A stretch of 34,965 nucleotides of DNA. Source: Candidatus Dadabacteria bacterium. GTDB taxonomy: Bacteria; Desulfobacterota_D; UBA1144; Nemesobacterales; Nemesobacteraceae. The notes under the pieces were generated by a model. The model was not told the DNA's origin and ran no database searches. It was given only the letters and a program-made list of their open reading frames with translations. Shown piece after piece: positions 2,098-25,338 of this stretch. Positions within the stretch are counted from its first letter, which is position 1, and each line of letters starts with the position of its first letter. The DNA is taken from assembly GCA_028823955.1 (NCBI GenBank), contig JAPPFE010000047.1, positions 1-34,965 on the forward strand, in the 5' to 3' direction. The translations under genes and the position numbers were made by a program.

Positions 2098-3444
2098 TCA
2101 GAAACTGTAAGCCAGATTGATCTTTACGTAACTGTCGCGCCGCACGTAGTATATGAAGTCCTCTTCGTCGATATCCAGAAAAGCCGAGGTCTCAATATGC
2201 AGCAACCAGTTGTCCGAAGAAAGGCGGCGCTTGAACTCGCCTGCGATGACGCGACTGCTTTTGTTGAGGGAACTCAAAACGCTGACGACAAATTCGGTGC
2301 TCTGCGGATCGTTCAATCCGAGACGCGCGGCAATGAACAGGTCGTTCTCGAATGCATTGGTTGCCCAGCGGCCACGGCCATCGTAAGCCCATTCGGCAAA
2401 CAGGATCAGGTCAGAGTTCGAACCCAATATGGAATAGAGTGTGTACTCGCTGCCCAGTATGAAAGCTGTGTAGTCCTCTTCCTCCAAAGTATTGAGGTGC
2501 TGGATGTACCTGCTGTTCCTCGCGCCAACGCGGTAGATTGCTTCCAGCTTGAGCAGCAGGGAACCCCTTGTAAGCTGAGAATCCACACCGAACTGGCGAA
2601 TCTTCTCGTAATGCGGAGCCAGTACCAGCCCGGAGTCGAGAAATACAGGCAAGAGGGTGGGCTCCCGGTTCGTACCGTTGAACAGACTGAGACCGATCTC
2701 GAGCGGTCCTAGTAAGCCGCTGTACCGGCCGGCAAGATCAACATGCCACTTTTTCGCGCCGGATTCGTATGAAATCATGTCCTGGTCTACAATGAACTCA
2801 TACCGCTGGCGGCCACGCCGGCCCGGATAGATGCGCGCGCGGTGCCACGTCATCGCGAACAGTTCCAGCGTTCCCCAGTCACCCGACCAGGTGAAATGGG
2901 CCATCGGCTGACCCATCTTTGTCTTTTCGTTCGGGTGTTCAATAACATCGGCCTGGTTGATGATATCCACCAGGGAACGCAGTTCCGCGACGCCCCAGAA
3001 CACCCGGTCGATGCCCAGACGCAATTCCCATTCGCCATCGCCAATATCGCCGTACATCAGTAGGTAGGCCTCAAGGAAATCAGCGTACGTGCGGTCCGGA
3101 TCCCCGGCATCATATCGCAAAAAGGGAGTCACCGTTATGCTTGTGCCTTCGTCGTTCTCAACATAGAACGTCGTCTCAACCGCAAGCCCGCCGGCATACG
3201 AGCGCTGGTCGGGGTACGCAGAATCCTGGGGATACAGCCAGGCCTCAGTCGAGAGGCGCCCGGAGACATCAATCCCCTCGGCGAAGCCGGCCGGGTACGC
3301 CACGGTCGGGAGCACCGAAACAAGCATCCCCAGCACCACCGCTAAAATCGCCGGGATGACTGAAGCCGGAACGCCCTTGCCGCTCTCACCGGGTGCGGTG
3401 AACGGATTTTTGAGAATCCGGCACTGGGTCCTTTCAAACAACAT
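2098..3444 (-). CDS. Outer-membrane beta-barrel protein
   Basis: This 448-residue protein has an N-terminal hydrophobic segment (IPAILAVVLGMLVSVLP, about residues 30-46) that serves as a signal peptide. The rest alternates short amphipathic strands with charged turns and ends in YVKINLAYSF. A C-terminal phenylalanine after alternating hydrophobic residues is the usual signal for the BAM machinery. The strand pattern resembles porin-like barrels of about 400 residues, but I recognise no named family. The long basic stretch before the hydrophobic core suggests that the real start may lie downstream, for example at the GTG just before PASVIP. No clear ribosome site precedes 3444. It lies upstream of the LRR gene on the same strand, 282 bp from that gene's start, and that gene has its own promoter. 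Confidence 0.75.
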   Translation of the reverse strand: MLFERTQCRILKNPFTAPGESGKGVPASVIPAILAVVLGMLVSVLPTVAYPAGFAEGIDVSGRLSTEAWLYPQDSAYPDQRSYAGGLAVETTFYVENDEGTSITVTPFLRYDAGDPDRTYADFLEAYLLMYGDIGDGEWELRLGIDRVFWGVAELRSLVDIINQADVIEHPNEKTKMGQPMAHFTWSGDWGTLELFAMTWHRARIYPGRRGRQRYEFIVDQDMISYESGAKKWHVDLAGRYSGLLGPLEIGLSLFNGTNREPTLLPVFLDSGLVLAPHYEKIRQFGVDSQLTRGSLLLKLEAIYRVGARNSRYIQHLNTLEEEDYTAFILGSEYTLYSILGSNSDLILFAEWAYDGRGRWATNAFENDLFIAARLGLNDPQSTEFVVSVLSSLNKSSRVIAGEFKRRLSSDNWLLHIETSAFLDIDEEDFIYYVRRDSYVKINLAYSF

Positions 3445-3733: not shown

Positions 3734-4981
3734 ATGAATAATCTTGAATCTCTATTTTTTGCGGGCATAGACTGGGGGAAAAACTCCCACCAGGTCTGCG
3801 TCATTGACAATGAAGGTTCCGTTGTCGAAGGAAAAAGCTTCAGACACACGGGAACCGGTCTTTTTGAAATGTCTCAGTGGATACAGAAGGTCTCAGGTTC
3901 TGATTCCTGTGACATGGCCGTTGCCATAGAGGTGAACCACGGCCCCGTGGTGGAAAGTCTATGTGAACAGGGTTTTATGGTTTATTCCGTAAATCCCAAG
4001 CAGCTTGACCGCTTCAGAGACAGGTTCTGCGTCTCGGGAGCCAAGGATGACAGAAAAGACGCTCTGGTTCTTGCGTCTGCGCTGCGCACGGACCGCAGAC
4101 GCTTCCGCCGCGTTGAACCGCAGAACCTGGACGTCATAGTTCTGCGGGAACTTACCAGAACGAGGGAAGAACTCACAAGAGAACGCACACGCCTTGTGAA
4201 CCGTTTCCGCACGCTGCTGTGGAGGTATTATCCTCAGTTTGAAGAGCTTCTCGGCAGTACCGTAAGGCCATGGCATCTTGAGCTTTGGGAACTTATCCCC
4301 TGTCCTGGCGCGGCAAATGGGAAAAGAGCCTCAACGGTCAACAAGATTCTCAAGCGCAACAGAGTGAGACGTGTTGACGCCGAGGGAGCGCTCAAGATAC
4401 TGCGGGCTGAAAGAATAAACGTGAGCGACGCGACCGTGCAAAGCTGTGTCTTCCATATAAGGTCGGTTGTTGAACGTTTGAAGGTGGCAGACCGTCAGCT
4501 CGGGGGAATCAAAGACTCCATAGAGAAGGTTATAGAAACCGTGAACGAAAAGCTTAAGGCTGAGGGAGACGGACCGACTGATATTGAGATTCTACGCTCC
4601 ATCCCCGGCGTGGGAATCGTGGTGCTCGCCACGCTTATTGCCGAGGCGTGGAGTCTTGTGCGCCGTCGGGACTTCGAGGCGATCCGATGTCTCGGGGGCA
4701 CAGCTCCAGTAACAAGACAATCGGGCAGGACAAAGCTGGTTGTCAGGAGAAGGGCTGTGTGCAAAAGCCTCTCGGCCGCGTTTCATATTCTGGGAGGGAT
4801 AGCCGTAACCAATGATCCGGTAAGCAAGGCAAAATATGAAGAGCTTCGGGAAAAGGGTCATGGTTACTGCAGATCCGTTCGCACTGTGTGTGACCGTCTT
4901 TTGTTCGTCGCCCGCGTCATCCTGGAAAAAGGAGAACTGTTTGACAAGGAATTCAGGAAACCTCTTCCAGATGCCGCGTAG
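3734..4981 (+). CDS. IS110-family transposase (DEDD and serine recombinase)
   Basis: This 415-residue protein has both IS110 domains. The N-terminal RuvC-like DEDD domain shows D13 in GIDWGKNSH, E66 in VAIEVNHG, and D106 and D109 in KDDRKDALVLA. A coiled-coil linker follows. The C-terminal Transposase_20 domain begins at LRSIPGVGIVVLATL and includes the serine in TRQSGRTK (S330), the position of the nucleophile in this family. Such enzymes recombine a circular donor with a target chosen by the bridge RNA. Length and residues are complete, so the copy looks active. A GGAGGT site lies about 15 nt before the ATG. It stands between the barrel gene and the sterol genes, and the following gene begins 299 bp downstream. 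Confidence 0.93.
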   Translation: MNNLESLFFAGIDWGKNSHQVCVIDNEGSVVEGKSFRHTGTGLFEMSQWIQKVSGSDSCDMAVAIEVNHGPVVESLCEQGFMVYSVNPKQLDRFRDRFCVSGAKDDRKDALVLASALRTDRRRFRRVEPQNLDVIVLRELTRTREELTRERTRLVNRFRTLLWRYYPQFEELLGSTVRPWHLELWELIPCPGAANGKRASTVNKILKRNRVRRVDAEGALKILRAERINVSDATVQSCVFHIRSVVERLKVADRQLGGIKDSIEKVIETVNEKLKAEGDGPTDIEILRSIPGVGIVVLATLIAEAWSLVRRRDFEAIRCLGGTAPVTRQSGRTKLVVRRRAVCKSLSAAFHILGGIAVTNDPVSKAKYEELREKGHGYCRSVRTVCDRLLFVARVILEKGELFDKEFRKPLPDAA

Positions 4982-5280: not shown

Positions 5281-6282
5281 ATGGCAGATGACTCCCATAA
5301 CCCAGTTTCAAATTCAGTTCAGCCGGATGATATTTTGGAAAGGCTGTCGAAGTACCGCAGAAGCCAGGGGCTGAGCAAGGAAGAGTACGCCAGCACGGTA
5401 ACGGCGTTTTATAACCTCATTACCGACTTTTGCGAGCGTGGATGGGGACAGTCGATTCACTTCGCAGTGATGGAGCCGGGGGTGTCTTTCGAGGAATCCA
5501 TTGCCAACCATGAGTATTTTCTGGGCGAAGCCATTGGGTTGAGACCGGGTATGAATGTGCTGGATGTCGGGTGCGGCGTGGGCGGACCCCAACGCTCCCT
5601 CGCAAGAAAGTACGGCGCTTCGATCGTGGGCCTCAACATCAACAAATATCAGCTCGGGAAGTGCTCCGTGTATAACAGCGAGGCTGGCCTGGACCATCTC
5701 TGCAGCGTCCTGCACGGCGATTTCCTGAATATACCGGCGGAAGACGGAAGCTTCGACGCGGCTTACCATATCGAGGCCTTGTGTCATGCGCCGGATAAAG
5801 CCGCGGCCTATGCCGAGATATTCCGTGTATTGCGGCCCGGCGCGGTCTTCGTCGGCTACGACGTGTGTACGACCCCGCTTTACGACGGCGGAAATCCTAA
5901 GCACCGGGAACTCAAGGAAATAAACGAATACGTCTCCGCTCTTCCGGAAATCGCTTCATTCACGGAGGTAGACGACAGCCTGCGGGCAGCCGGTTTCGAA
6001 CTTGTCGAGGCGCGTGACCGCGCTCTTGACGCCGACCCCAAGACGCCGTGGTATCAACCGCTGGAAGGGGGCAGCCTGAATCTGAGGAGTTTCTCGAGAA
6101 CGGCCCTTGGCCGCAAAATCGCCTCGGCGGTTGTGCCCGTTCTGGAAGGCGTGCGCGCCGTACCCAAGGGATCATCCGAGGCACGAAGAATTATCAATGT
6201 CGTGGCCGACAGCCTCCTGGCCGCAGGACGTCTGGGAATTGTTACGCCCATGTACTACCACAAGGCGCGCAAGCCGGGCTGA
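5281..6282 (+). CDS. Sterol C-24 methyltransferase family protein (ERG6/SMT-like)
   Basis: This 333-residue SAM-dependent methyltransferase has the marks of the sterol methyltransferase family. Near residues 45-62 is the sterol-binding region (FYNLITDFCERGWGQSIHFA, compare the Y-D/E-x-GWG-x-S-x-HF signature of ERG6). SAM motif I is VLDVGCGVGGP (about 93-103). ALCHAPDKAAAYAEIFRVLRPG follows in the core. The C-terminal Sterol_MT_C segment ends in LGIVTPMYYHKARKPG. SMTs transfer a methyl group to C-24 of the sterol side chain. It lies convergent to a sterol reductase. GAGGGAA sits about 8 nt before the ATG. A second, interrupted SMT lies at 18769-19809. Related SMT-like enzymes that methylate other isoprenoids are the main alternative. 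Confidence 0.85.
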   Translation: MADDSHNPVSNSVQPDDILERLSKYRRSQGLSKEEYASTVTAFYNLITDFCERGWGQSIHFAVMEPGVSFEESIANHEYFLGEAIGLRPGMNVLDVGCGVGGPQRSLARKYGASIVGLNINKYQLGKCSVYNSEAGLDHLCSVLHGDFLNIPAEDGSFDAAYHIEALCHAPDKAAAYAEIFRVLRPGAVFVGYDVCTTPLYDGGNPKHRELKEINEYVSALPEIASFTEVDDSLRAAGFELVEARDRALDADPKTPWYQPLEGGSLNLRSFSRTALGRKIASAVVPVLEGVRAVPKGSSEARRIINVVADSLLAAGRLGIVTPMYYHKARKPG

Positions 6283-6374
6283 TCCGTACAGACAGCAATC
6301 AGGTTCCAACGAAAGCACTGTGTGGCCCGGCGGCGGGTGTAATTACCCTGAATGAATCCAGCCGGGAACTCTCA

Positions 6375-7514
6375 TCAATAAATGCCGGGGAAAATCCGGT
6401 ATTTGACCCGCGCCTGATATTCCGCCCACTTTTCGGCACCGTATTTCTCGGCACAATACGCATCGTCAAAACGTTGACGAAAGGTAAAAAACGTTACGAC
6501 GAAGACAAAGTAGATCCACGCCCAGGGATTGGTAAAGTAGCCGAATGCCAGGGCAATTGAAAGACCAAGGAAACCTTCGCCTAGGTAGTTGAAGTGGCGA
6601 GCGGCACCCCAGAAGCCACTGCACAGGATCTTGCGGTCTCCGGCCTGGATGTACTCAGGCTTGATGATCCCGAGAAATTTGCGGTCGGGCCATCGCTTGA
6701 ATGTATATTTCTGCATGTTGGCGCCGCGCGAGATGCCCCACCCGAACAGGAACAGCGCAGTTGTCCCGATCAGCCAGAAATATGTCCATCCCGACGAGAA
6801 CCCGGGAGACGGGTAAGCGGCCATGCCCCAAAGCGGGAGGATAAACAGCCACCCGTAGACCACGAGGCCTCCCCAGAACATTTTGAAGCCGATGCCCTCA
6901 TGGATCAGATCATAGGTATACAGCTGGACGCGCTCGAAGATAAAATAGTCCAGTATGTAGTATGTGTAGAATGCCGCATACAGGAAAACGCCCGGATTAT
7001 AGTTCTCGCCAAAGATTTCGTAGTTGTACGCAGCCCCAGACAAGGCGTTGAGCGCCAGCATCGTCCCACCGACGACATAGAAATACATCTTTATATCGAA
7101 GCGCTCGTTAAAGAACGATATCTCCTGCACCCGCCCGTCCCAAAGCGCCAGAAGCGGGTTTTTTATCCTGCCTTGCGGCTGGCTGAAGACCGCCATGATC
7201 GCAAAGATCGTGGTGAAGACCGTTCCGCCGGTCACGGCATAGACCGAGGACTGGTAGAACCACTCACGCGGCATCCCGGTGAGCTCGAAAGCCCACACGA
7301 TCAGCGCGACCGCAAACACCACGATACCGTTTAGCCGGTAACTGCGGGGTTTACCGGTCTGCGGATTAATAACGTAGCCGGGAACCCGCTTTCCGGGCAG
7401 TATAAGCTGCGCAAGGAAAAACACGGCGAAAATCACAAGCGGGGTGAAAAAACCCGCTATCGCTTCCGTCCGGGAAAGCTCGAAAAGGTGGCCAATGCCA
7501 AGCCATTCGATCAT
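6375..7514 (-). CDS. Sterol reductase, ERG24/ERG4/DHCR7 (LBR) family
   Basis: This is a polytopic membrane protein of 379 residues with about eight to ten hydrophobic segments. The C-terminal half carries the family signatures: RGANMQKYTFKRWPD, then GFWGAARHFNYLGE, then RQRFDDAYCAEKYGAEKW and the terminus YRIFPGIY. These match the NADPH-binding and active-site motifs of delta-14, delta-7 and delta-24(28) sterol reductases. The position of the reduced double bond cannot be read from sequence. Because C-24 methylation can leave a 24(28) double bond, an ERG4-like role next to the SMT is plausible; a delta-14 reductase acting after C-14 demethylation is the other option. The start is supported by AAGGAGGA 8 nt upstream. 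It is divergent from the P450 gene, sharing a 282-bp regulatory region. Confidence 0.88.
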   Translation of the reverse strand: MIEWLGIGHLFELSRTEAIAGFFTPLVIFAVFFLAQLILPGKRVPGYVINPQTGKPRSYRLNGIVVFAVALIVWAFELTGMPREWFYQSSVYAVTGGTVFTTIFAIMAVFSQPQGRIKNPLLALWDGRVQEISFFNERFDIKMYFYVVGGTMLALNALSGAAYNYEIFGENYNPGVFLYAAFYTYYILDYFIFERVQLYTYDLIHEGIGFKMFWGGLVVYGWLFILPLWGMAAYPSPGFSSGWTYFWLIGTTALFLFGWGISRGANMQKYTFKRWPDRKFLGIIKPEYIQAGDRKILCSGFWGAARHFNYLGEGFLGLSIALAFGYFTNPWAWIYFVFVVTFFTFRQRFDDAYCAEKYGAEKWAEYQARVKYRIFPGIY

Positions 7515-7679
7515 AACTGAATCCTCCTTTCCCCAGTGAAGTGGTCGCTATACGCACAGAGAAGATCAATGACGCACTGCACTGGAATTGCGTAATGCTA
7601 GCAGTATACAGACTATATGGGGACAGTGCTCGGAATTTTTTCAAAATCGTGCTTTCAAGTTCCCGGCATTTCTTCAGAT

Positions 7680-7708
7680 TTGACTATATCCCGGCCGGGG
7701 TATAAAAT
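7680..7708 (+). promoter_or_regulatory. Promoter of the P450-flavoprotein pair with a palindromic spacer
   Basis: A -35 box TTGACT (7680-7685) and a -10 box TAAAAT (7703-7708) are 17 nt apart. The spacer holds the perfect palindrome CCCGGCCGGG (7690-7699), a likely operator. The start site would be near 7715, about 80 nt before the GTG start of the P450 gene. Confidence 0.55.
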
Positions 7709-7796
7709 CTCCATATTGCGAACTATGGTCATAGGTTTTACAATTCCCTGTAATCATTACCGTGCCACAGGTTAAAACGGAAGGGGGCGACGACTG

Positions 7797-9815
7797 GTGA
7801 ATGGTTCTATTGAAAACCACCAACTGAGCTTGCTCGACGAGTTCATATTGATGCTCCTCGACGAAGAGAGCGGCTACTTTTACCAGATATCCGCCCACAA
7901 GATGAACTGCGCTATCATCGGTGCGGTACTCGCTGAACTTTCTCTGTTTTCGCGTATCGACACGGACGTGGAGTCACTCATCCTCCTGGATCCGACAGAA
8001 ACGGGCAACCCAAGCTTGGACCTGATTCTTAAGGAAATCGTCGATGAGCCAGATCATCACAACGCCCAGTACTGGATTGAAAAGCTCATCAAACATGCGG
8101 AAACAATCACCGACTTGACTTTAGAGAATCTGCTTGATCTGGGAATTCTGGAACATCACCAGGGTGATTTCTGGACAGTGGCGCCTGGAAAACTGTACGC
8201 GGATGCAGAAATCGATGATGATGATGGGAGCATAGGTCAGTTCATCAGAACCAGAATCGGCAAAGACATCTTTTCAGACGACATTCCACATCCGCGAGAT
8301 ATTATCATCATTTGCCTGATCGAAACATGCGATGTCTTTCCCCTCATGTTCAAGCTCGACAAAAAGGCGGAAGAACGGATCGAGCTTATCTGCAGAATGG
8401 ACCTAATCGGCCGTTCAATGGCGGACGCGGTAGCAGAGAACATCAATAATCCACTGCTTACAAGTTCTCAAATCAGCAAAAAAATCCCGCGCGTTTCACT
8501 TCATCGGCTGCTGCTCAACCCGCATACCCGTACAGGGAACCTCCCGGCACTTTTTGCAGATTTGACAAAGCAGTATGGCCCAGTCTTTGAGATCGCTCCT
8601 CCTTTTTCAAAGCCGAATATTTTTATTTCCGGACCGGAAATAAACCGCTGGGTACGTCGACACGGACGTAAGTACCTGACATCCAAGAGTTATTTCGACG
8701 ACTTTGAGAAAGTGTACGGGGCGGTAGGAATACTGCCTTCTCTGGACGGCGCAGATCATTTCCGGTACCGAAAAACCATGACTCCAGCCTACTCCCGCGG
8801 GAGACTGGAAGAGCAGCTGGACGTGGTCTACAGCAAGGCCCGCGGATACATGGCAAACTGGAAAGTGGGCGAAAGCTACCCCGCAAGGGATTTGTGCCGA
8901 AAAATGATTAACGCTCAGATGTCGCCTTTATCCATGAACATTGATTCGCAGGATATCATGGATGATATAATTGCCTACAAGGAGCGGGCGCTCAGCACCC
9001 ATCTCTTGAACATCCTGCCGAAATTCATGCTGAAAACACCGGGAATGAAACGCAGGGCCAAGGCAATAGACACGTTGATAGGGCGGGTGCAGAGCGTACA
9101 TACAGCAGCCCAGCGGGCCGGTTGTCCGCGAAACTTTGTGGATGATCTGCTGAACCTACATGAGAACTACCCGATGTTGATGCCCGAGTCGAATCTGAGT
9201 TTCGCTCTATCGGCAGTGGTGCTTGCCAGCATGTACCTGGGTGACGGCTTCAGTTTCGCCCTTTACGCCATGGCGTCACAATCTGAGCTTTACGAAAAAA
9301 TTCGAAGTGAGGCCGACGCACTGTTTTCAGATGGTGACCCAGCCGGCGAAGATTTTACTCCCGCCAACATGGAAATCACCGATCGCTTCATCGATGAATG
9401 CCTTCGGATGTACCCTATTGTTCCCATGTCCATGCGTGACGTTGTGAATACGTTCACGGTCGAGGGCTACGAAATACCGCAGGGGGCCAGAATAAACATT
9501 GCGCAAACCGCCCCGCACTATATGGAAGATTCCTTCCCGGACCCCTTTTCATTTGATATCGACCGCTACCTGCCGCCTCGCAATGAGCATAAAAACCCCG
9601 GATACGCCCCATACGGACTGGGTCCGCACACCTGCCTTGGCGCCCGATGGATGACCCTGCATATGGCTGTCAACCTGTTGATCATAGCGCATTACTTTAC
9701 CCTTCGCATACACCCCGAAGACTATAAACTCGGGATTACATCGTTTCCATCAATGAAACCGAACAAGAAGCTTGAATTTCATGTCGCCGAACAGAAACGA
9801 GAGTTGCCCGTTTGA
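7797..9815 (+). CDS. GPP34-domain/cytochrome P450 fusion protein
   Basis: This 672-residue protein has two parts. Residues 1 to about 215 look like a GPP34 (Golgi phosphoprotein 3) domain: LSLLDEFILMLLDEESG, then GAVLAELSLFSRI, later HPRDIIIICLIETCDVF. In eukaryotes GPP34 binds phosphoinositide membranes. From about residue 230 it is a P450: the ExxR motif is ECLR (E534-R537), and the heme loop is YGLGPHTCLG with the ligand Cys613. Histidine replaces the usual arginine of FxxGxRxC, as in many bacterial P450s. The I-helix reads YLGDGFSF rather than the common AGxDT. P450s of this size hydroxylate or demethylate hydrophobic substrates; a sterol is implied by the neighbours. The start is GTG, with AAGGGGG about 11 nt upstream. 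No ferredoxin or reductase gene is in the window. Confidence 0.85.
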   Translation: MNGSIENHQLSLLDEFILMLLDEESGYFYQISAHKMNCAIIGAVLAELSLFSRIDTDVESLILLDPTETGNPSLDLILKEIVDEPDHHNAQYWIEKLIKHAETITDLTLENLLDLGILEHHQGDFWTVAPGKLYADAEIDDDDGSIGQFIRTRIGKDIFSDDIPHPRDIIIICLIETCDVFPLMFKLDKKAEERIELICRMDLIGRSMADAVAENINNPLLTSSQISKKIPRVSLHRLLLNPHTRTGNLPALFADLTKQYGPVFEIAPPFSKPNIFISGPEINRWVRRHGRKYLTSKSYFDDFEKVYGAVGILPSLDGADHFRYRKTMTPAYSRGRLEEQLDVVYSKARGYMANWKVGESYPARDLCRKMINAQMSPLSMNIDSQDIMDDIIAYKERALSTHLLNILPKFMLKTPGMKRRAKAIDTLIGRVQSVHTAAQRAGCPRNFVDDLLNLHENYPMLMPESNLSFALSAVVLASMYLGDGFSFALYAMASQSELYEKIRSEADALFSDGDPAGEDFTPANMEITDRFIDECLRMYPIVPMSMRDVVNTFTVEGYEIPQGARINIAQTAPHYMEDSFPDPFSFDIDRYLPPRNEHKNPGYAPYGLGPHTCLGARWMTLHMAVNLLIIAHYFTLRIHPEDYKLGITSFPSMKPNKKLEFHVAEQKRELPV

Positions 9816-11199
9816 TTATTCCCAAACGGAGAACACTGAAAAAACAAGAAAGGTCGCTATTATTGGTGGTGGAGTATCCGGGTTGGGGGTGGCTTGGGCT
9901 CTGCACCGACACCCTGATCTGTTCGAGTTTCGAATTTTTGAAGCCCAGCCTCAGCTGGGTGGCAATGCCGTAACAGCTGACATGCCACAAAATGATGGAA
10001 ACTCGATCTCGTTTGATATTTCCGTTACCGCGTGCATACCATCGGCATACCACCATATGGTGCTGTTCATGCAGCAGCACGGCATCGATCTGGTAGACAC
10101 CAAATTCAACTACAGCGTGAAGTACCGTGGCGAAATCTACGCGCATGATTTCGACTCAGACATAAGGAGTCAGCTGCAACCGGAAATTGCCAGGTTCCAG
10201 AAACTCCTGAGGCGGCTCAAATGGTTCGGTCAGCTTAACCACTCCAGATCCCTATTGCTCAATGCTCTCAATCCATTCAACTACATAAGCATGGGAACGG
10301 TTCTCAACCTGGGCAGGTTTTCCGGAGACTTCAGGTACAAGGTTCTTAAGCCGATGTTCGTCAATTTCCTGATGGCAACGAATGTGTTCGATATGCCCGC
10401 GTCCCTGTTTGCCCGGTATCTTGAGTTCTTTGATATAGAAACCGCGACAACAATGCATACATGGGATATGGGTACGCGGCGCATATACGGGGAAATGTCC
10501 GCCGGGTTTCGGGACAGGATATACCTCAACAGGCCCGTGAGGAAAGTGTATCGGAGCACATCCGGTGTGCTCATTGAAGATGAGGACGGAATCACGGAGA
10601 CATTTGACGATGTGGTCTTCGCGTGCAACGCGAACCAGACATTGATGATTCTGGACAATCCGACCTTGCTGGAGAGCTTCCTTCTTTCCTCGATTCGTTA
10701 CGAGAGCGAACTGCACAACCATACGGTTGTACATTCCGACGCCTCTGTCCTCCCGAACAACGCCGCCAAGCCCCTCGAGACCCGGAGCAACCACATTGAA
10801 CAGTACGGTGCGAGACCAGACAACTATGAAATCACCTACATCATGCACAACCAGCAACCCGGGGCGAAGAAATCGGACAAGCCGTGCCTAGTGACCTACA
10901 ACCCGATCAGTCGCATCAACGAAGAGAAAATCGTAAAAAAATGGTGGTTTCAGCACATCGTACACGATGTGTCTCACATAGCGTTTCTGATTAATCTGTT
11001 TGGTTTCGTTCAGGGGCGCAAAAGAACCTGGCACTGTGGTGCTCATACTCTGATCAACAGTCAAGAGACATGTTTTGTTTCCGGCCTCGTTACGGCAAGA
11101 CAACTTGGAGCAGACTATCCCTTTCAGGATTCCGAAGCGAGGAAGTGGTTTAACTTCTACGGACGTATGATGTACGGCTGGCGCCTCAGAAAGGCATAG
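9781..11199 (+). CDS. FAD-dependent amine-oxidase-like oxidoreductase
   Basis: This 472-residue flavoprotein begins with a Rossmann dinucleotide fold: KVAIIGGGVSGLGVAWAL (GxGxxG at residues 29-34), then an acidic residue in RIFEAQPQLGGNA. GCHTL-like flavin-contact residues occur near the end (WHCGAHTL). The layout matches the NAD(P)-binding/flavin amine oxidase superfamily, which includes phytoene-desaturase-like and sterol-oxidising enzymes. The actual substrate is not visible. It overlaps the 3' end of the P450 gene by 35 bp, so the two are translationally coupled and probably act in one pathway. A TTG at 9772 is a possible earlier start, but ATG at 9781 is preferred. It converges on the TPR gene, only 41 bp away. 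Confidence 0.8.
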   Translation: MSPNRNESCPFDYSQTENTEKTRKVAIIGGGVSGLGVAWALHRHPDLFEFRIFEAQPQLGGNAVTADMPQNDGNSISFDISVTACIPSAYHHMVLFMQQHGIDLVDTKFNYSVKYRGEIYAHDFDSDIRSQLQPEIARFQKLLRRLKWFGQLNHSRSLLLNALNPFNYISMGTVLNLGRFSGDFRYKVLKPMFVNFLMATNVFDMPASLFARYLEFFDIETATTMHTWDMGTRRIYGEMSAGFRDRIYLNRPVRKVYRSTSGVLIEDEDGITETFDDVVFACNANQTLMILDNPTLLESFLLSSIRYESELHNHTVVHSDASVLPNNAAKPLETRSNHIEQYGARPDNYEITYIMHNQQPGAKKSDKPCLVTYNPISRINEEKIVKKWWFQHIVHDVSHIAFLINLFGFVQGRKRTWHCGAHTLINSQETCFVSGLVTARQLGADYPFQDSEARKWFNFYGRMMYGWRLRKA

Positions 11200-11240
11200 A
11201 GCAGCCCCGGCATCTTGGTTCCCGAAGTTGCGGCAAGTCA

Positions 11241-12032
11241 TCAGTAGTCGTCATCGTCATCGTCGGATTTATTGAGGTTGTCGAGAGCCTCGACCGCTTC
11301 GATGTGCAGTATCCGTTCGTAAGCATCCTTCGCCGGCAACCCGATGGCGCGCATCAGCAGGTTCCGTGCTTTCTCCCGGTATTGGTAATCATCCAGCGCT
11401 ATTAAGCCGAGTGCGTATTGCAGAGGCACAGCTTTTGCATCGGGAGCCAGGGCAAGAGCCCTTTCGAAGGAGGCAATGGCATCCTTTTTCCGCGCACCGT
11501 AGACGGTGCGGGCCACGAACGAACCCATCGCGCCAACCAGTTCCGAATGCCACCGCCCCAGGCTGAGATGTGCCGTCACCAATTTGGGATTAATTCGAAG
11601 CGCGTTTTCCGTGGATTCGCGTATTTTTTCCGCCTCTCCCGCCGCTTCGAACACGCCGACAGTCTCCGCGCGCCGTCCGATAGCACGCGCCAGCTGCAGA
11701 TGGGCATCCGCATTGCCGGGGTCGGAGGTAACCGCCTTTCTCGCCAGCGTTACGGCGTGCTCAAGCAACTTTTTCTTCTCACCTTGTTTGGCGATGTAGT
11801 GAGCGTGGACTGACAGCGACTCTGCGGAGAGCGCGAACCCCTGCGAAGTCCCGAGACTTTCACCGATCCGGGCCGCCTCGGCAAATCGCCCTTGTGCATA
11901 GGCCGCCTTTGCCTCGTCAATGCTTTGTGCGTGGGCAACACCGATCAGCGGCAGGACATATACAAAAGCCAAGCAGCAGAAAAAAAACAGGCAGATCATA
12001 TTAACCGGATAGTGTTTATTGCGACTGTTCAT
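11241..12032 (-). CDS. Secreted TPR-repeat protein with acidic tail
   Basis: This 263-residue protein has a signal peptide (hydrophobic ICLFFFCCLAFVYVLPLIGV, cleavage after AHA at residue 35). The mature part is alpha-helical with TPR-like repeats: IDEAKAAYAQGRFAEAARIG, then ARKAVTSDPGNADAHLQLAR, then ALRINPKLVTAHLSLGRW and FERALALAPDA. It ends in SDDDDDDY, an unusual aspartate run. TPR proteins scaffold protein contacts; here that would be in the periplasm. It resembles bacterial relatives of the RMD (regulator of microtubule dynamics) TPR group, but I would not assign more. It is divergent from the receiver-phosphatase gene across a 281-bp region that contains TATAAT at 12259-12264 on the plus strand. 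Confidence 0.75.
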   Translation of the reverse strand: MNSRNKHYPVNMICLFFFCCLAFVYVLPLIGVAHAQSIDEAKAAYAQGRFAEAARIGESLGTSQGFALSAESLSVHAHYIAKQGEKKKLLEHAVTLARKAVTSDPGNADAHLQLARAIGRRAETVGVFEAAGEAEKIRESTENALRINPKLVTAHLSLGRWHSELVGAMGSFVARTVYGARKKDAIASFERALALAPDAKAVPLQYALGLIALDDYQYREKARNLLMRAIGLPAKDAYERILHIEAVEALDNLNKSDDDDDDY

Positions 12033-12313
12033 TTAACGGCTCCAGAGTAATTGGGGTCTGCCAGAAAACCGAACGTTCGTACATATTATGTAGCGTACCA
12101 ACCACAAGAGTTATATTCAAATCTGATATGCGGAAGTTATTCCTAAATGCGTTTGCCATAAAACAACTGCGGTTTCCGTGGATTTGTTAGTGTTCGACAC
12201 AGGTATTTTGCCGAGTCAAGGATATGATTCCCTGTACATAACTTAGTGTAATCAGGTATATAATTATCGGTTTACCAATTAAATTAGGCCCTAAACGGCA
12301 AGGTAGGTTCTAA

Positions 12314-13471
12314 ATGGACAACGGCAAATTCCGAATTTTGGTTGTCGATGACGAAATAGATTTAGAACAGCTTATGCTGCAGAGAATGCGGCGTGAAGTT
12401 CGTCGCGGTCGTTACGAATTCGAATTTGCACACAACGGTGTGGAAGCTCTCGAACGTCTACGCGACGACGACGGGTTCGATATTGTGCTGTCTGACATTA
12501 ACATGCCCGTTATGGACGGGTTGACATTGTTAGCACAGATACCGGAAGTAGACCCTGATATTCGTGCCGTAATGGTCTCCGCATACGGTGATATGGAGAA
12601 CATACGGACTGCCATGAACCGCGGGGCATTCGACTTCGTTACCAAGCCGATAGACTTCACGGACCTGAAGACTACAATTGAACGTACGATTGAAAACCTT
12701 GCTATGTGGCGTAAAGCACTGAGCGCGCGCGACAAGCTTGTGGCTCTCCAGAACGAGCTTGATGTGGCAAGGACGATGCAGCAGGATATTCTTCCGAAAT
12801 CCTTTCCAACTTCTGAAACATTTGATCTGTACGCAAGCATGGTTCCGGCTCTTTCCGTAGGCGGCGACTTTTACGATGTTTATGAATTTAGTGACGGCCG
12901 GATTGGAATTGCGATAGCCGATGTGTCGGGCAAAGGAGTGCCCGCGGCAATGTTCATGATGGCCAGTCGTACGCTGCTGAAGGCTTGCGCGGCAATTTCC
13001 ACATCTCCTGCCGCCGTACTGGAACAGGTAAATACGATGTTGGCGGAGGACAACGATGCCATGACATTCGTAACCCTGCTATACGGCATTTACGATCCTA
13101 GAACGAAAGAATTCGTCTACGCGAACGGCGGACATAATCCGCCAGTTATTGTCAAGCCGAATCTGACAACTGAACTGTTGGAGTCAACGGGCGGAGTTGC
13201 TCTGGGCGTGATGCCGAATTTCAAATATGAGGAGAATACAGTCACCATTGAGTCGGGTTCCATGATCGTGTTTTACACTGACGGAGTAGTGGAAGCTGAA
13301 AAAGAAGATAAGGAATTATTCGAAATGGACAGGTTTTGCGAAATTTTCCAAAGCGGCACTTTCAAGAACTCCGAGGAAGTTACGAATGAGGTATTCGAGA
13401 CGGTCAAAGAGTTCGCTGGTGAAAATCCGCAATCTGACGATATAACCTGTCTTGTTCTGCGAACCACATAA
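12314..13471 (+). CDS. Response regulator fused to a PP2C/SpoIIE phosphatase (RsbU-like)
   Basis: Residues 1-130 form a receiver domain: acidic pocket VVDDEID, phosphoacceptor D61 in DIVLSDINMPVMDG, then AYGD and the conserved lysine in FVTKPID. A coiled linker (about 135-160) leads to a PP2C-type SpoIIE domain (about 165-385) with metal-binding aspartates in VGGDFYDVYEF, IADVSGKGVPAAMFM, ANGGHNPPVI, YTDGVVEAE and SDDITCLVL. Such proteins remove phosphate from STAS anti-anti-sigma factors when their receiver is phosphorylated. The candidate upstream kinase (15155-17380), the RsbW-like kinase (13490-13906) and two STAS partners (17387-18332) all follow. It is the first gene of a four-gene run with gaps of 4-18 bp. 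A GGTAGG site precedes the ATG. Confidence 0.93.
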   Translation: MDNGKFRILVVDDEIDLEQLMLQRMRREVRRGRYEFEFAHNGVEALERLRDDDGFDIVLSDINMPVMDGLTLLAQIPEVDPDIRAVMVSAYGDMENIRTAMNRGAFDFVTKPIDFTDLKTTIERTIENLAMWRKALSARDKLVALQNELDVARTMQQDILPKSFPTSETFDLYASMVPALSVGGDFYDVYEFSDGRIGIAIADVSGKGVPAAMFMMASRTLLKACAAISTSPAAVLEQVNTMLAEDNDAMTFVTLLYGIYDPRTKEFVYANGGHNPPVIVKPNLTTELLESTGGVALGVMPNFKYEENTVTIESGSMIVFYTDGVVEAEKEDKELFEMDRFCEIFQSGTFKNSEEVTNEVFETVKEFAGENPQSDDITCLVLRTT

Positions 13472-13489
13472 TGGGTAAAGACAGTTAGG

Positions 13490-13906
13490 ATGCAAGCTTC
13501 ACGTACGTTGATCGTTCCGAATCGGTTGGAGGAAATCCAGAAAATTGCGGCAGCGCTGGAGGAATTTTATGAACAACTGGATCTCCCCTCCGAAGCACTG
13601 TTTCACATACAGCTTTCCCTGGAGGAGATCTTCACTAACGTGGTCAGCTATGCGCATGATGATGATCAGGAACATGAAGTGGAAATTATATTCTCAGGAG
13701 AAGGTGAAACCATGACTGTTGAGATACTGGATGACGGATATCCCTTTAATCCGCTTGAAGATGCGCCGGAGCTTGATGTCGAAAGTTCGCTTGAGAACCG
13801 CCGTATTGGCGGAGCAGGAATAATGCTGGCCAAGCAACTGATGACAGAGTTGCGCTATCAGCGCAACAGTGATCGCAATCATCTGACCATGATCAAGAAA
13901 ATTTAG
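13490..13906 (+). CDS. RsbW-like anti-sigma factor/serine kinase
   Basis: This 138-residue protein is a stand-alone HATPase_c_2 domain of the RsbW/SpoIIAB type. The N-box is LSLEEIFTNVVSYAH (E46, N50), the G1 box is DDGYPFNP, and the ATP-lid region is GGAGIMLAKQLM. In partner switching these proteins phosphorylate STAS proteins on serine and bind either a sigma factor or the unphosphorylated STAS protein. It lies 18 bp after its presumed opponent phosphatase and 4 bp before the binding-protein gene. No sigma factor gene is in the window, so the final target may be encoded elsewhere or may not be a sigma factor. Confidence 0.88.
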   Translation: MQASRTLIVPNRLEEIQKIAAALEEFYEQLDLPSEALFHIQLSLEEIFTNVVSYAHDDDQEHEVEIIFSGEGETMTVEILDDGYPFNPLEDAPELDVESSLENRRIGGAGIMLAKQLMTELRYQRNSDRNHLTMIKKI

Positions 13907-13910
13907 AAAA

Positions 13911-15149: not shown

Positions 15150-15154
15150 ACTAA

Positions 15155-17380: not shown

Positions 17381-17386
17381 ATGCGT

Positions 17387-17746
17387 TTAACCCGTTATCG
17401 CAGCTATAGCATCAGAACGAGATTCGAGCACGTTAATGATTTTGTCAAAACCCGCAATCTCGAAAATTTCCTTTATGGGAACGGGCAAGGAACACAGCAT
17501 GAATCCCGTCTTTCTGCCTTGAAGCGTTTTCGCAACAAGCAGAATTGAGCGCAGCCCCGCGCTGCTGATGTAGGACAGCTTTTCAAGATCCAGAACTACG
17601 GGATTCTCAGAATCGCCAATTTCCTTGTCCAGATTTTCGTGGAATTCCTGCGCGTTCATACCATCAATCCGGCCAGCTACGCTTATTACCAAGGCCCCCT
17701 CAATCTGATCGGCCTGTAACTCAAGTTGGTTGTTTTGAGTGCTCAT
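17387..17746 (-). CDS. STAS-domain anti-anti-sigma factor, first copy
   Basis: This 119-residue protein is a single STAS domain. The signature VVLDLEKLSYISSAGLRSIL includes the serine (S62) that RsbW-type kinases phosphorylate. The unphosphorylated form would capture the kinase at 13490-13906, and the PP2C domain at 12314-13471 would restore it. It is divergent from a close paralogue at 17970-18332, with 223 bp between the starts, and its stop is 6 bp from the end of the histidine kinase gene. No strong ribosome site is visible. Confidence 0.9.
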   Translation of the reverse strand: MSTQNNQLELQADQIEGALVISVAGRIDGMNAQEFHENLDKEIGDSENPVVLDLEKLSYISSAGLRSILLVAKTLQGRKTGFMLCSLPVPIKEIFEIAGFDKIINVLESRSDAIAAITG

Positions 17747-20174: not shown

Positions 20175-20240
20175 GTGGCAAAAGGAAGAGGAAGTACAAG
20201 ACCTGAAACCTGCAGATACTGCGGAATTCGGCATGATCGT

Positions 20241-22571
20241 ATGAAACTGAAATCCTGTATCTCGATGATAGTCACCCGACGCTGGCTGACTATTCTGCTC
20301 TCTTTGCTTGTTATGCTGGCGCTTGCTGCGGGGGCCACGCGCTTGGTTGTGGTGGATGTAGACTTTCGCAATCACTTTGGCAAATCCGACCCGCACCTCA
20401 TCGCGCTGGAACAGCTTGAAGAGACATATGCGCTGTCCGATGTTGCATTGGTCGCCGTGGCGCCGCATAACGGCACCGTCTTTACGAAGGACGCGCTTGT
20501 TGCCATTGAAGAGTTGACTGAGCAGCTTTGGCGCACCCCTTACGCCACCCGTGTCGACTCTATTTCGAACTACACGCACAGTAAGGGGCTTGAAGACGAA
20601 CTGGTTGTTGAGCCACTTATCGAGGAAGCCGGTTCCCTGAGCGATACGGATATAGAACGAATCAAGGATGTCGCCCTCGGTACTCAGGAAGTTGCCGGGC
20701 GGTTCATTTCCCGTGACGGAAAAGTTGCCGGTTTGGTTGTGAGTATTGTGCTTCCTGACGACAATCGGGAATTGACCAAGCGAGAGGTTACCGACTACCT
20801 GTATGAGACTGTTGCCAACGCCCGGGAGAAATATACATCCATCGACTACCACCTTTTAGGTGGACTCATCCTAAATCGTGTCATAGGTGACGCTCTTGAC
20901 GATGAAACAGCCGTACTCGGGCCAATTGCTCTTGGAACCATGCTGCTTGTCGCCCTGGTTCTGATACGTTCGATATGGGGAACGCTTGCCATCGTGCTGA
21001 TGATTTTTGCCGTCATCTCATCCGCGCTGGGCTTTGCCGGATGGACCGGCTTAAGGTTGTTTGGTGAAAGCGGTGCCGCGCTGTTCGTACTGATGGCCGT
21101 GACCGTCGCTCATTCCGTGCACATTATTGAGGGAATGGCCGGGGGCTTGCGCCAGGGCATGACAAAAGCAGAGGCGGCGATCCATGCTGTGCGAGTGAAC
21201 GTGTGGCCTGTTTTCCTTACCTCGTTCACAACTGCAATCGGATTTCTGAGCCTGAATTTCGTAGATATGCCGCCGTTTCGAGTCATGGGCAACATCGTGG
21301 CGTTCGGCTCCATGTGCGCTTTTGTCTTTTCGGTGACCCTGTTGCCCGCATTCCTGTCAGTATTACCTGTTCGTGCCCGGAAGATGCGGGAGAACAGACA
21401 GGATTTTTTCGATCGTCTCAGCCGTTTTGTCATCTCATACCGTACGATCCTTCTGTGCTTCTTCGGCATTGTAACTATCGTGCTGGTTGCCGGCATTTCC
21501 AAGATCGAACTTAGGGAGAACTGGCTTGAGGTTATGGATGAGAGTTATGAGTTCCGGCGATCCGCGGATTTTCTGAGCAAGAATTTCCCTGGCGTGGAAA
21601 CCTATGAGTACTCTCTTGACTCCGGCCGTGAAGGCGCCGTTACGGATATAGGATACCTAAAGCAGGTCGAGGCGTTTTCGGACTGGTACAGGAAGCAACC
21701 GGAATTTGTCCATATCTTCTCAATTGCCGACATCATGAAGCGTCTGAACAAGAACCTGCATGGTGATAACCCGGATTACTACACGCTTCCAGACGATCCC
21801 GAACTTGCCGCGCAGTATCTTCTGCTCTACGAATTCTCTCTTCCGATAGGCCGTGACCTTAATAATCTGATCGACCATGACCGGAGGGCAACACGCGCAA
21901 CGGTCTCAGTGAAAAGTATGTCCAGCAAGGAAAAAATCGACCTCGACAACCGTGCGCACGCATGGTTGCGGCAAAATGCCCCCAGCATGGAAACCGGCGC
22001 TACAGGAATTTCGATTGTGGGGTCTCATTCAATTCAGAGAAACATTGAAAACATGCTGCAGGGCACTTTTGTGGCGATGGCCATAGTCTCCCTGCTGCTG
22101 TTCGCCATATTCAGAAGCATACGCCTGGGACTGGTCAGTCTGATACCCAATTTCCTTCCGGCCGCTATGGCCATGGGACTGTGGGGCCACCTGGTGGGAG
22201 AGGTGGGAGTTCCGGCGGCAGTCGTCACCGCTATAGCATTCGGCATCATCGTGGACGACACCATCCATTTCATGACAAAATACACGGACAGCAGAAAAGC
22301 GGGGAAACTGCCTTCGGAGTCCGTCCAGATTGCCTTTCGCTCTGTGGGCAGGGCATTATTTACAACTACCATAGTGTTCGGGCTCGGCTTCATGGTGTTC
22401 GGAACATCCGGGTTGGTGGGAAACCAGGTGCTTGGTCTTCTGGTAGGAATAACGGTAATTATCGCTCTGGTGGCAGATTTCTTCTTTCTTCCGCCGCTTC
22501 TGATGCTGCTTGACGAAACCAAGGAAACCGGTGAGCAGATCAGAGAGCGACTGAGAAGCTCAACCGCATAG
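20241..22571 (+). CDS. RND-superfamily (MMPL/HpnN-like) lipid exporter, possible sterol transporter
   Basis: This protein of about 776 residues (798 from the GTG at 20175) has the RND duplication: one helix, a periplasmic loop, five helices, then the same again. The first block includes GPIALGTMLLVALVLIRS and LMAVTVAHSVHIIEGMAGG; the second ends with AIAFGIIVDDTIHFMTKYTD and VFGLGFMVFGTSGLVGNQVL. Such MMPL/HpnN-type pumps move hopanoids, lipids or sterols from the inner membrane outward, and their helices resemble sterol-sensing domains. In Methylococcus an RND protein (BstA) takes part in sterol transport, and the sterol-type neighbours here suggest the same. No periplasmic adaptor or outer-membrane channel is adjacent. 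Of the possible starts, ATG at 20241 keeps a short cytoplasmic lead before the first helix. Confidence 0.82.
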   Translation: MKLKSCISMIVTRRWLTILLSLLVMLALAAGATRLVVVDVDFRNHFGKSDPHLIALEQLEETYALSDVALVAVAPHNGTVFTKDALVAIEELTEQLWRTPYATRVDSISNYTHSKGLEDELVVEPLIEEAGSLSDTDIERIKDVALGTQEVAGRFISRDGKVAGLVVSIVLPDDNRELTKREVTDYLYETVANAREKYTSIDYHLLGGLILNRVIGDALDDETAVLGPIALGTMLLVALVLIRSIWGTLAIVLMIFAVISSALGFAGWTGLRLFGESGAALFVLMAVTVAHSVHIIEGMAGGLRQGMTKAEAAIHAVRVNVWPVFLTSFTTAIGFLSLNFVDMPPFRVMGNIVAFGSMCAFVFSVTLLPAFLSVLPVRARKMRENRQDFFDRLSRFVISYRTILLCFFGIVTIVLVAGISKIELRENWLEVMDESYEFRRSADFLSKNFPGVETYEYSLDSGREGAVTDIGYLKQVEAFSDWYRKQPEFVHIFSIADIMKRLNKNLHGDNPDYYTLPDDPELAAQYLLLYEFSLPIGRDLNNLIDHDRRATRATVSVKSMSSKEKIDLDNRAHAWLRQNAPSMETGATGISIVGSHSIQRNIENMLQGTFVAMAIVSLLLFAIFRSIRLGLVSLIPNFLPAAMAMGLWGHLVGEVGVPAAVVTAIAFGIIVDDTIHFMTKYTDSRKAGKLPSESVQIAFRSVGRALFTTTIVFGLGFMVFGTSGLVGNQVLGLLVGITVIIALVADFFFLPPLLMLLDETKETGEQIRERLRSSTA

Positions 22572-22650: not shown

Positions 22651-23694
22651 CTACGGGCTGTAATACTGACCATCCGGATAGAACTGCCTGCAGTAGCGCC
22701 GATACTTCCCGATATCGCTGTCAGCACTGCAGAGTTTCGGACGTGACCGATGCCTCAGATTGCTCCAGATGACGACATCCTGCATGACGTCATGCTCTTG
22801 GGAGGCAATGAGTATCTTGTTCATGATGCGGGTCCTGATCCCCGTGGGAAAGAGCCGCAATCCCAAGCCCAGCCCCTTAGGGTTACGAAGTTGCCGCATC
22901 TGGCTCACCAATGTCATTTCAACGAATTTGCCGTCAATCGGTGTTGTGAGCACCCACATGCGGGTTTCCATGCCTATTGAATGTTCGCGGACCTCGACAA
23001 ATGAATAGCCGAGCCCGTGTATATTGGCTACCGCGGAGACGTCGTACTCGAAAAGCCTTATACCGGCAACTGCAAGGGTACGTTTGAAATTGAAGGAATT
23101 TCTGAGTGCGGCGCCGTCAATTGATACCGAACCGACAATGTTCACACTGTCGTAGTGGTGCACATAGTTTAGGTGCGCGGCATCCACTGAGTTCTCGGTA
23201 GTTTCCTGGGGGTGTCCGGGGAAACGGATGTGCCGGAATTCCATCCCGCTCCAGTCCGCATCCGCCGTGGGAGCCTCGGGCAGGTGCCATTGAGGCGTTC
23301 GACCGCCGCTGCCCCACCACGCAAAGATGAGACCCTGAATTTCCCGCGTCTCGAACACCTTCAGCCTGGCGGTCTTCGGCGGAGGAGCGAAGGGTGTCGC
23401 CACGCATTGACCGCTTACATCAAACTCGAAACCGTGAAAAGGACATACCAGGCAACCGTTGCTTATCCGCCCCCCTACCTCAGGGCCAAGGTCGGCTCCA
23501 AGATGCGGACAGACTGCCTCGGCAACGCAGACTCTGCCTTCGCTGTTGCACCAGACAACAACCTGTTCTCCAAGCCAGATTCTCTTCAGAAGCCCCTGTT
23601 TTTCAATCATCTTGCGGCTGGCGACAAAATACCAGCCTTCCGGAAACGGGTAAAGCAATGCTTCATTCTTTCGCGCGTTTGGGTTTGGATTCAT
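22651..23694 (-). CDS. Rieske non-heme iron oxygenase, cholesterol 7-desaturase/SdmA-like (first)
   Basis: This 347-residue protein has a Rieske domain at about 15-120 with both ligand pairs, CPHLGADLG (C62, H64) and CPFHGFEFD (C84, H87). The catalytic domain holds the mononuclear iron motif ENSVDAAHLNYVHHYD, that is E-N-x2-D-x2-H-x4-H. The overall form, including FPEGWYFVA at the start and EHDVMQDVVIWSNLRHRSRP near the end, matches the DAF-36/Neverland type of Rieske oxygenase and bacterial SdmA, which acts at C-4 in Methylococcus. Such enzymes oxidise the sterol nucleus and need an electron-donating reductase, which is not in the window. The ATG is preceded by GGAG at about 9 nt. It is divergent from the second Rieske gene across 657 bp. 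Confidence 0.87.
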   Translation of the reverse strand: MNPNPNARKNEALLYPFPEGWYFVASRKMIEKQGLLKRIWLGEQVVVWCNSEGRVCVAEAVCPHLGADLGPEVGGRISNGCLVCPFHGFEFDVSGQCVATPFAPPPKTARLKVFETREIQGLIFAWWGSGGRTPQWHLPEAPTADADWSGMEFRHIRFPGHPQETTENSVDAAHLNYVHHYDSVNIVGSVSIDGAALRNSFNFKRTLAVAGIRLFEYDVSAVANIHGLGYSFVEVREHSIGMETRMWVLTTPIDGKFVEMTLVSQMRQLRNPKGLGLGLRLFPTGIRTRIMNKILIASQEHDVMQDVVIWSNLRHRSRPKLCSADSDIGKYRRYCRQFYPDGQYYSP

Positions 23695-24351: not shown

Positions 24352-25338
24352 ATGACAGAACAACAAGAACGCAGGGAACGCACCTATCCCCCACCTTTCC
24401 CGGACGGGTGGTACAGGGTGGCGAATTCGAAAGACATTAAACCTGGAGAGGTAAGGCACATTCAATGCCTGGGGGAGGAGATTGCTCTTTTCCGCAGCGA
24501 CACTGGCCGAATAGCAGCGCTTGAGGCTTTCTGCCCCCACATGGGAGCCAATCTGGCCTATGGTGAAGTCAAGGGAGACCGGCTTCAGTGTCCTTTTCAC
24601 GGCTGGCAACTCGATGGAAACGGAAGGGTTTGCCAACCTCGTATTTCCGAATCTTTCGTTCAAAAACGCTGGGAAGCAATCGAGTATTACGGGATGATCT
24701 TGATTTATCATTCCGCAAGCGGCAAATCGCCGCCGTACCAATTACCGTCTCAGGAGAAGATCGATAGTGGGCAGCAGGTTTATCGCGGCCATCACAACGC
24801 AGGCGAAGAAGAAATCCATATCATTGAGTTTGCCGAGAACACTGTCGACTTCACTCATTTCTCCACTGTGCACGGAACTATGTGTATTCCCTGGACTCAA
24901 ATTAAGCTGCCCTGGATAAAGATTCGGCATAAGCCCGGCTGGTCCTCTGACAAGTACCTCGCATATTTTAAAGACGAGGCAACGCTTGAGATAAGAGGCA
25001 AGATTTACGAGAACACCAGATGCTCGGCGCTGCTTACTTTTTTCGGGCCGGGGAGCGTGGTGAGGTTTGAACTTGATATACCGAAGATTGGCGAAATAAC
25101 GATATTCCAGACTTTCACCCCTGTTGAAGCACTGAAGCAACGGATAGCCCTCCGATGGTTTGCTCCCCGCAAGGCCCCTGGGATACTGGTTTCCTCTGTG
25201 GTTGGGAGCTGGTTTTCACAGTTAAAAGAAGATCTAGGGATACTAAAAAGGAAAATCTACCAGAAGGTCCCTTTGCAAGCTAAAAGCGAAGGCCTCTTGT
25301 TAGAGGATATGCGAAGGTGGTATCAGCAATTTTACTAA
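24352..25338 (+). CDS. Rieske non-heme iron oxygenase, cholesterol 7-desaturase/SdmA-like (second)
   Basis: This 328-residue protein has Rieske ligands in CPHMGANLAYG (C61, H63) and CPFHGWQLDG (C80, H83), and the iron site ENTVDFTHFSTVHGT with the same E-N-x2-D-x2-H-x4-H spacing as the first Rieske protein. FPDGWYRVANSKDI at the start and the HIIEFAENTVD segment place it in the DAF-36/Neverland group. The two proteins are clearly homologous but far from identical, so they probably act on different positions or steps. No ribosome site is evident: the sequence just before the ATG is the terminator T-run. Expression therefore depends on passing the terminator or on an unseen promoter. The following 146 bp holds no gene. 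Confidence 0.87.
   Translation: MTEQQERRERTYPPPFPDGWYRVANSKDIKPGEVRHIQCLGEEIALFRSDTGRIAALEAFCPHMGANLAYGEVKGDRLQCPFHGWQLDGNGRVCQPRISESFVQKRWEAIEYYGMILIYHSASGKSPPYQLPSQEKIDSGQQVYRGHHNAGEEEIHIIEFAENTVDFTHFSTVHGTMCIPWTQIKLPWIKIRHKPGWSSDKYLAYFKDEATLEIRGKIYENTRCSALLTFFGPGSVVRFELDIPKIGEITIFQTFTPVEALKQRIALRWFAPRKAPGILVSSVVGSWFSQLKEDLGILKRKIYQKVPLQAKSEGLLLEDMRRWYQQFY

Follow-up and report, generated by a model that had tools for sequence, protein, structure and literature searches.

The window analyzed here, a stretch of 34,965 nucleotides from a Candidatus Dadabacteria genome, contains an uninterrupted open reading frame with a GTG start, whose 672-residue product joins an N-terminal GPP34 (GOLPH3-like) domain through a linker to a cytochrome P450 domain (Table 1). 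This fusion protein represents both the sole GPP34 domain and the sole P450 that we found in the source genome (1.68 Mb). Its gene lies between those for an ERG4/ERG24-family reductase and a flavin oxidoreductase, and the window additionally encodes a sterol C24-methyltransferase homolog, Rieske oxygenases and an MMPL transporter. The methyltransferase is present as a full-length protein, with at least 83% identity, in 12 of the 14 genomes of the genus. The reductase likewise occurs in 12 of 14, namely those which have the fusion or in which the sequence is cut where the fusion would be, and a search of 61 genomes recovered no version of this reductase outside the genus.

Several further genes share the window. 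A second sterol methyltransferase homolog (18769-19809, minus strand; 41% identity to the first copy) carries a single in-frame TAG that breaks its reading frame, and has intact relatives in sister genomes. An IS110-family transposase gene (3734-4981, plus strand) separates the DUF1302 gene from the methyltransferase gene; as these two are only about 250 bp apart in most of the related Dadabacteria loci compared, the element looks like a recent insertion. An IS30-like transposase with HTH_38 and rve domains is encoded close to the window's right edge (32301-33311, minus strand). The region 12314-17746 codes for a partner-switching set comprising a SpoIIE-type response regulator, an RsbW-like kinase, a periplasmic binding protein, a sensor histidine kinase and a STAS protein. 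All of the complete Dadabacteria loci that we examined keep this set beside the fusion, but it was not found there in the examined loci of other phyla.

Table 1. Features of the window, followed by stand-alone GPP34/STAS loci from elsewhere
Feature	Position	Strand	Basis
GPP34-cytochrome P450 fusion gene, 672 aa	7797..9815	+	open frame, Pfam domains, orthologs
GPP34 (GOLPH3-like) domain, residues 12-214	7830..8438	+	PF05719 E=3.1e-26; profile match to Vps74/GOLPH3 structures
Segment LEHHQGDFWTV, residues 118-128, aligned with GOLPH3 beta-hairpin (190-201)	8148..8180	+	profile alignment
Linker, residues 215-245	8439..8531	+	length constant in most of the family (alignment of 28 fusions)
Cytochrome P450 domain, residues 246-656	8532..9764	+	PF00067 E=8.9e-38
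I-helix A477-S-M-Y-L481 replacing the usual [A/G]Gx[D/E]T	9225..9239	+	alignments
ExxR motif ECLR, residues 534-537	9396..9407	+	E534 and R537 invariant in 28 fusions
Heme-ligand Cys613 in YGLGPHTCLG	9633..9635	+	invariant in 28 fusions
DUF1302-like protein, cassette member in two phyla	2098..3444	-	weak Pfam match
Sterol C24-methyltransferase homolog with Sterol_MT_C domain	5281..6282	+	Pfam
ERG4/ERG24-family sterol reductase	6375..7514	-	PF01222 E=1e-32; 4quv E=1.6e-33
Flavin amine-oxidase-fold oxidoreductase, LkcE-like	9772..11199	+	gene start lies within the 3' end of the fusion gene
TPR protein, cassette member	11241..12032	-	Pfam; cassette comparison
MMPL/RND transporter, weak sterol-sensing-domain similarity	20175..22571	+	domain match; cassette comparison
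KshA-like Rieske oxygenase, cassette member	22651..23694	-	55-62% identity in other phyla
Second KshA-like Rieske oxygenase	24352..25338	+	domain match
Stand-alone GPP34/STAS loci	L037 9969-11020; L038 11971-12976; L039 7893-8920; L041 4620-5672; L047 3216-4221		
Further stand-alone GPP34/STAS loci	L113; L118; L119; L124; L126		

Domain architecture, lipid pocket and active site

The original prediction had assigned the first 215 or so residues to the GPP34 fold and the remainder to a P450 with an ECLR motif and Cys613, and profile comparisons bear out both assignments. The N-terminal domain spans positions 1-200 of the 201 in the PF05719 profile with a score of 93.1 bits (cut-off 29.1), and the C-terminal domain spans positions 19-455 of the 462 in PF00067 with 130.7 bits (cut-off 22.8). 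When residues 1-230 were compared with the PDB as a single sequence only a chance match was obtained and an alignment profile was needed; a profile of the fused and related GPP34 domains recovered Vps74 (E=3e-12) and GOLPH3 (E=2e-9). AlphaFold models based on shallow alignments reached a pLDDT of 31.6 for the full-length protein and 41.5 for residues 9-221, both too low to be of use. In the portion of the open-access literature covered we found no description of a GPP34-P450 protein, in agreement with the earlier statement that no characterized example of the fusion is known; the three papers mentioning both terms, among 5.39 million, deal with insect pests according to their titles and abstracts.

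The pocket through which GOLPH3 binds PI4P is formed by W81, R90, R171 and R174, and a beta-hairpin (residues 190-201) inserts into the membrane (PMC13408441). In our profile alignment the four pocket positions are occupied by S32, I41, E102 and T105 of the fusion, so that none of them is kept. This speaks against PI4P binding through the GOLPH3 pocket, and the PI4P analogy drawn in the original prediction is not supported. The stand-alone GPP34 proteins of Dadabacteria also lack the equivalent of R90 in the same alignment. The segment matching the hairpin retains the aromatic residues F125 and W126, and a hairpin appears at the same residues in the otherwise unreliable AlphaFold model. Thus, the fused domain belongs to the same family as GOLPH3 and Vps74 by profile similarity over most of its length and retains their aromatic hairpin region, but differs from these eukaryotic Golgi PI4P effectors in being bacterial, linked to a P450 and devoid of the four PI4P-binding residues. 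A lipid tether that does not depend on PI4P is plausible for such a domain.

A bacterial GPP34 domain is also seen in the SCO4440-type proteins of Streptomyces. SCO4440 is a single GOLPH3-domain protein which has been linked to peptidoglycan and to wall-deficient cells and is encoded beside a carboxypeptidase gene; unlike in the fusion, no P450 is mentioned in that study (PMC12402492). We also observed that stand-alone GPP34 genes adjoin a STAS-domain gene in five of six Dadabacteria and in all five examined members of one clade of the phylum here termed P3, which suggests that GPP34 and STAS proteins form a functional pair.

In the P450 domain both the cysteine of the FxxGxxxCxG signature (C613) and the ExxR motif (E534/R537) are present, and as these residues, together with an FDxDR stretch, are invariant across 28 fusions, heme binding should be intact. 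The window protein lacks the acid/alcohol pair in the I-helix that marks canonical monooxygenases. The same is true of 27 of the 28 fusions, which show A-S-M-Y-L or close variants at this position, and the sole version with the pair is the copy G392c (TGLDTT), which is also the one without sterol-related neighbors. All 12 of the stand-alone P450s compared keep the pair. Given that it is restricted to these stand-alone P450s and G392c, the pair was probably lost after the fusion, in the lineage associated with the sterol cassette. Its loss points to a chemistry that may be unusual, and not to inactivity. Among the best PDB matches of the fusion is CYP120A1, which aligns over its full length with 72 bits but is distant and has a canonical AGHET where the fusion has ASMYL.

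Phyletic spread and evolutionary history of the fusion

Full-length orthologs with 86-91% identity are found in eight other genomes of the same Dadabacteria genus, and one of these is located on a single-contig chromosome of 1.59 Mb. In two further genomes the fusion is truncated where the contig stops, and in another (G013) the neighboring reductase gene lies at the contig end, just where the fusion would come next. In other Dadabacteria genera GPP34 and P450 genes are only seen as stand-alone versions. When 387 genomes were searched with the GPP34 family, the long GPP34 frames recovered from other phyla proved to be GPP34-P450 fusions as well. In the small phylum P2 the fusion occurs in all 12 genomes of one genus (with an in-frame stop in G168 and a split frame in G396), and in P3 it occurs in five of the seven genomes of one genus, two of which have two copies. 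These versions show 31-66% identity to the window protein over its full length.

The original prediction had itself raised the concern that two genes might have been joined in assembly. We regard the probability of such an artifact as negligible: nothing speaks in its favor, the stop in G168 and the split in G396 being local defects, and the complete fusion is seen at 31-91% identity in nine Dadabacteria genomes, one of them the single-contig chromosome, as well as in P2 and P3. The TAG of G168 is situated around position 8151 of its locus (L078), before the heme-binding region, and the frame is open in the sister genome G392; this copy may represent a pseudogene, a sequencing error or a case of recoding. 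The in-frame stops reported for the copies of G403, G405 and G406 appear, unlike that of G168, to lie outside both domains, which are covered by open frames.

In the GPP34 tree all fused domains fall on one side of a branch with an SH-aLRT support of 94, and in the P450 tree they do so with a support of 79. The pairwise distances of the two domains are also strongly correlated (Mantel r=0.92; 0 of 5000 permutations). These trees were quickly constructed and contain some long branches, such that their deep placements are not firm, and both are consistent with a fusion that arose once, after which the two domains were inherited and transferred together. The P3 version closest to those of Dadabacteria (G406a, 66% identity) is adjacent to them in both trees. 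As the Dadabacteria copies are nested among the fusions of other phyla, they were probably acquired horizontally as a ready-made gene. We reject an origin within Dadabacteria from their own GPP34, because the fused GPP34 domains group with the fusions of other phyla to the exclusion of the stand-alone Dadabacteria versions. Searches of viral contigs with the GPP34 and fusion profiles found no relatives, and plasmids yielded separate P450s and two GPP34 proteins but no fusion. The closest stand-alone P450 that we found (26.6% identity) is encoded on a Planktothrix plasmid, where it is clustered with squalene-cyclase-like and squalene-synthase-like genes. The carriers of the fusion are probably associated with sponges; for the source genome this reflects the reported presence of Dadabacteria among sponge-associated bacteria rather than its own metadata.

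Sterol-related gene-neighborhoods and a functional proposal

Across the three phyla the neighborhood of the fusion repeatedly contains genes for an MMPL transporter, a DUF1302 protein, a sterol C24-methyltransferase, a KshA-like Rieske oxygenase, a flavin oxidase and a TPR protein. Relative to the window, the versions from other phyla show identities of 47-57% (MMPL), 48-52% (DUF1302), 42-50% (methyltransferase), 71-78% (flavin oxidase) and 41-52% (TPR), besides that given for the Rieske oxygenase in Table 1. The methyltransferase in particular is linked to the fusion in Dadabacteria and in loci of both other phyla. The most divergent fusion, G392c (locus L142, 8613-10631, minus strand; 31% identity), has no sterol cassette genes around it, so that the GPP34-P450 architecture as such need not imply sterols, and this copy may serve a second function.

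In P3 the fusion is located close to genes for de novo sterol synthesis. Two loci of this phylum, L139 of G406 (11130-14465) and L134 of G405 (6033-9602), each have a minus-strand frame that encodes a squalene epoxidase (PF08491) and, downstream of it, a complete oxidosqualene cyclase, with both the N- and C-terminal SQHop_cyclase domains and a VSDCTA/VTDCTA motif (VSDCTA in L139). By its domain content this frame is a fused epoxidase-cyclase of a bacterial sterol cluster. In L139 it lies some 200 bp upstream of the fusion gene, in the same orientation, and in L134 it adjoins genes for a CYP51 (E=3e-102 to that of Methylococcus), an ERG24-type reductase and homologs of SdmA (E=6e-114) and SdmB (E=3e-91), the latter two scoring under the NCBIfam equivalog cut-offs; here the fusion is situated about 1.2 kb beyond these genes. 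The C14-reductase of this locus shows 30% identity to the divergent reductase of the window. The fusion itself is not a CYP51. It belongs to the same superfamily and occurs near a CYP51 in one phylum, but its similarity to the Methylococcus enzyme is weak (67 bits, as against 346 for the separate CYP51 of L134) and it lacks the I-helix motif. With a true CYP51 beside it in L134, the fusion most likely performs a step other than C14-demethylation. Pfam searches of 14 genomes of the Dadabacteria genus, which are incomplete metagenome-assembled genomes, found no oxidosqualene cyclase, and these bacteria therefore probably act on sterols taken up from outside. Functional sterol methyltransferases occur in sterol gene clusters of sponge-symbiont metagenomes, and these clusters resemble the cassettes of the fusion in containing sterol methyltransferases and sdmA/sdmB homologs; unlike the fusion loci, they are described, in the main text, with no mention of GPP34, P450, CYP or Dadabacteria (PMC10070321).

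Based on these observations we propose, with somewhat better than even confidence, that the fusion is a sterol-tailoring P450 that is peripherally docked by its GPP34 domain on the membrane holding its sterol substrate. Eukaryotic P450s normally reach membrane substrates by means of a hydrophobic anchor, and the GPP34 domain would stand in for the transmembrane anchor of the microsomal enzymes, binding a sterol-containing membrane by way of its beta-hairpin and of general contacts with lipids instead of PI4P. The suggestion in the original prediction that GPP34 tethers the P450 to a lipid surface or delivers a membrane substrate fits this sterol context, and we infer it to be the best reading of the domain. 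The P450 would carry out a tailoring step on the sterol. The side chain is its most likely target, with the reaction falling between the methyltransferase and reductase steps, and C22-desaturation and side-chain hydroxylation are candidates. The set of methyltransferase, fusion and reductase presumably parallels fungal ERG6, ERG5 and ERG4, and we propose the sterol C22-desaturases CYP61/CYP710, side-chain P450s acting between ERG6- and ERG4-type steps, as candidate functional analogs. In Dadabacteria the sterol would be imported via DUF1302/MMPL proteins rather than synthesized, and the electrons for the P450 would have to be supplied by a partner. At the level of sequence, this proposal is supported by the fusion itself, its conservation in three phyla, the shared history of the two domains, the recurrent sterol neighborhood, the co-location with sterol synthesis in P3 and the squalene-related plasmid neighbors of the closest stand-alone P450. 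It is weakened by the missing acid/alcohol pair, which is unusual for a monooxygenase, by the loss of all four PI4P-binding residues, by the most divergent fusion with its lack of sterol neighbors, and by the KshA-like, MMPL and DUF1302 proteins, which are also typical of steroid degradation.

Other readings depart from this proposal to differing extents. In one, which differs solely in the role of GPP34, the domain is a protein-docking module that recruits partners from the cassette, for instance the flavin oxidase or the Rieske oxygenase, or that connects the P450 with regulators. The absence of the PI4P-binding residues, the pairing of stand-alone GPP34 genes of Dadabacteria and one P3 clade with STAS-domain genes, and the fact that GOLPH3 itself binds protein tails (PMC13408441) are in its favor; yet the aromatic hairpin region is kept, and with a membrane-bound substrate a lipid tether is the simpler use, making this a doubtful, if serious, possibility. 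Another reading shares both substrate and docking with our proposal, but in it the P450 would no longer activate oxygen in the normal way and would function as a heme-bound sterol binder, an isomerase or a peroxide-dependent enzyme placed at the membrane by GPP34. The replacement of [A/G]Gx[D/E]T in nearly all fusions, as opposed to its retention in the stand-alone P450s and G392c, speaks for this reading. However, the invariance of Cys613, ExxR and the FDxDR stretch, and the fact that P450s without the I-helix threonine such as P450eryF and P450cin can still hydroxylate, make it unlikely.

The remaining readings concern the pathway or the substrate. KshA-like Rieske oxygenases, MMPL and DUF1302 proteins resemble those of steroid-degradation loci, and the fusion and the Rieske oxygenases might initiate, for example through terminal oxidation of the side chain, the breakdown of host sterols imported via DUF1302/MMPL. 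The apparent lack of an oxidosqualene cyclase in the Dadabacteria genus agrees with such catabolism, but the sterol methyltransferases and ERG4/24 reductase of the same cassette are anabolic and in P3 the fusion is located with de novo sterol synthesis genes, leaving it quite unlikely. A different triterpenoid or membrane lipid as substrate, with the sterol genes being neighbors for other reasons, appears decidedly improbable: the triterpenoid-like plasmid cluster of the nearest stand-alone P450 and the divergent copy in L142 point in this direction, but are countered by the repeated linkage to a sterol methyltransferase in three phyla and to the oxidosqualene cyclase, CYP51, SdmA and SdmB in one.

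Beyond the original prediction, the analysis places the fusion in three phyla and in a sterol cassette, and reveals the non-canonical I-helix of its P450. To our knowledge, bacterial GPP34 proteins have almost no known function, and a lipid-binding-type domain on a P450 from a sterol cluster would, if true, provide a concrete role for them. As a bolder scenario, unlikely to hold in its entirety, we could be dealing with a family of sterol P450s with a GOLPH3-type peripheral domain and a non-canonical site devoid of the acid/alcohol pair, which moved between phyla of probable sponge symbionts within a sterol-remodeling cassette, and whose side-chain reaction, along with the linked methyltransferases, helps make unusual sponge sterols. 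The cassette also has a bearing on the source of the 24-isopropylcholestane biomarker, in that it supplies specific genes with which to ask whether the underlying sponge sterols are produced or remodeled by bacterial symbionts.
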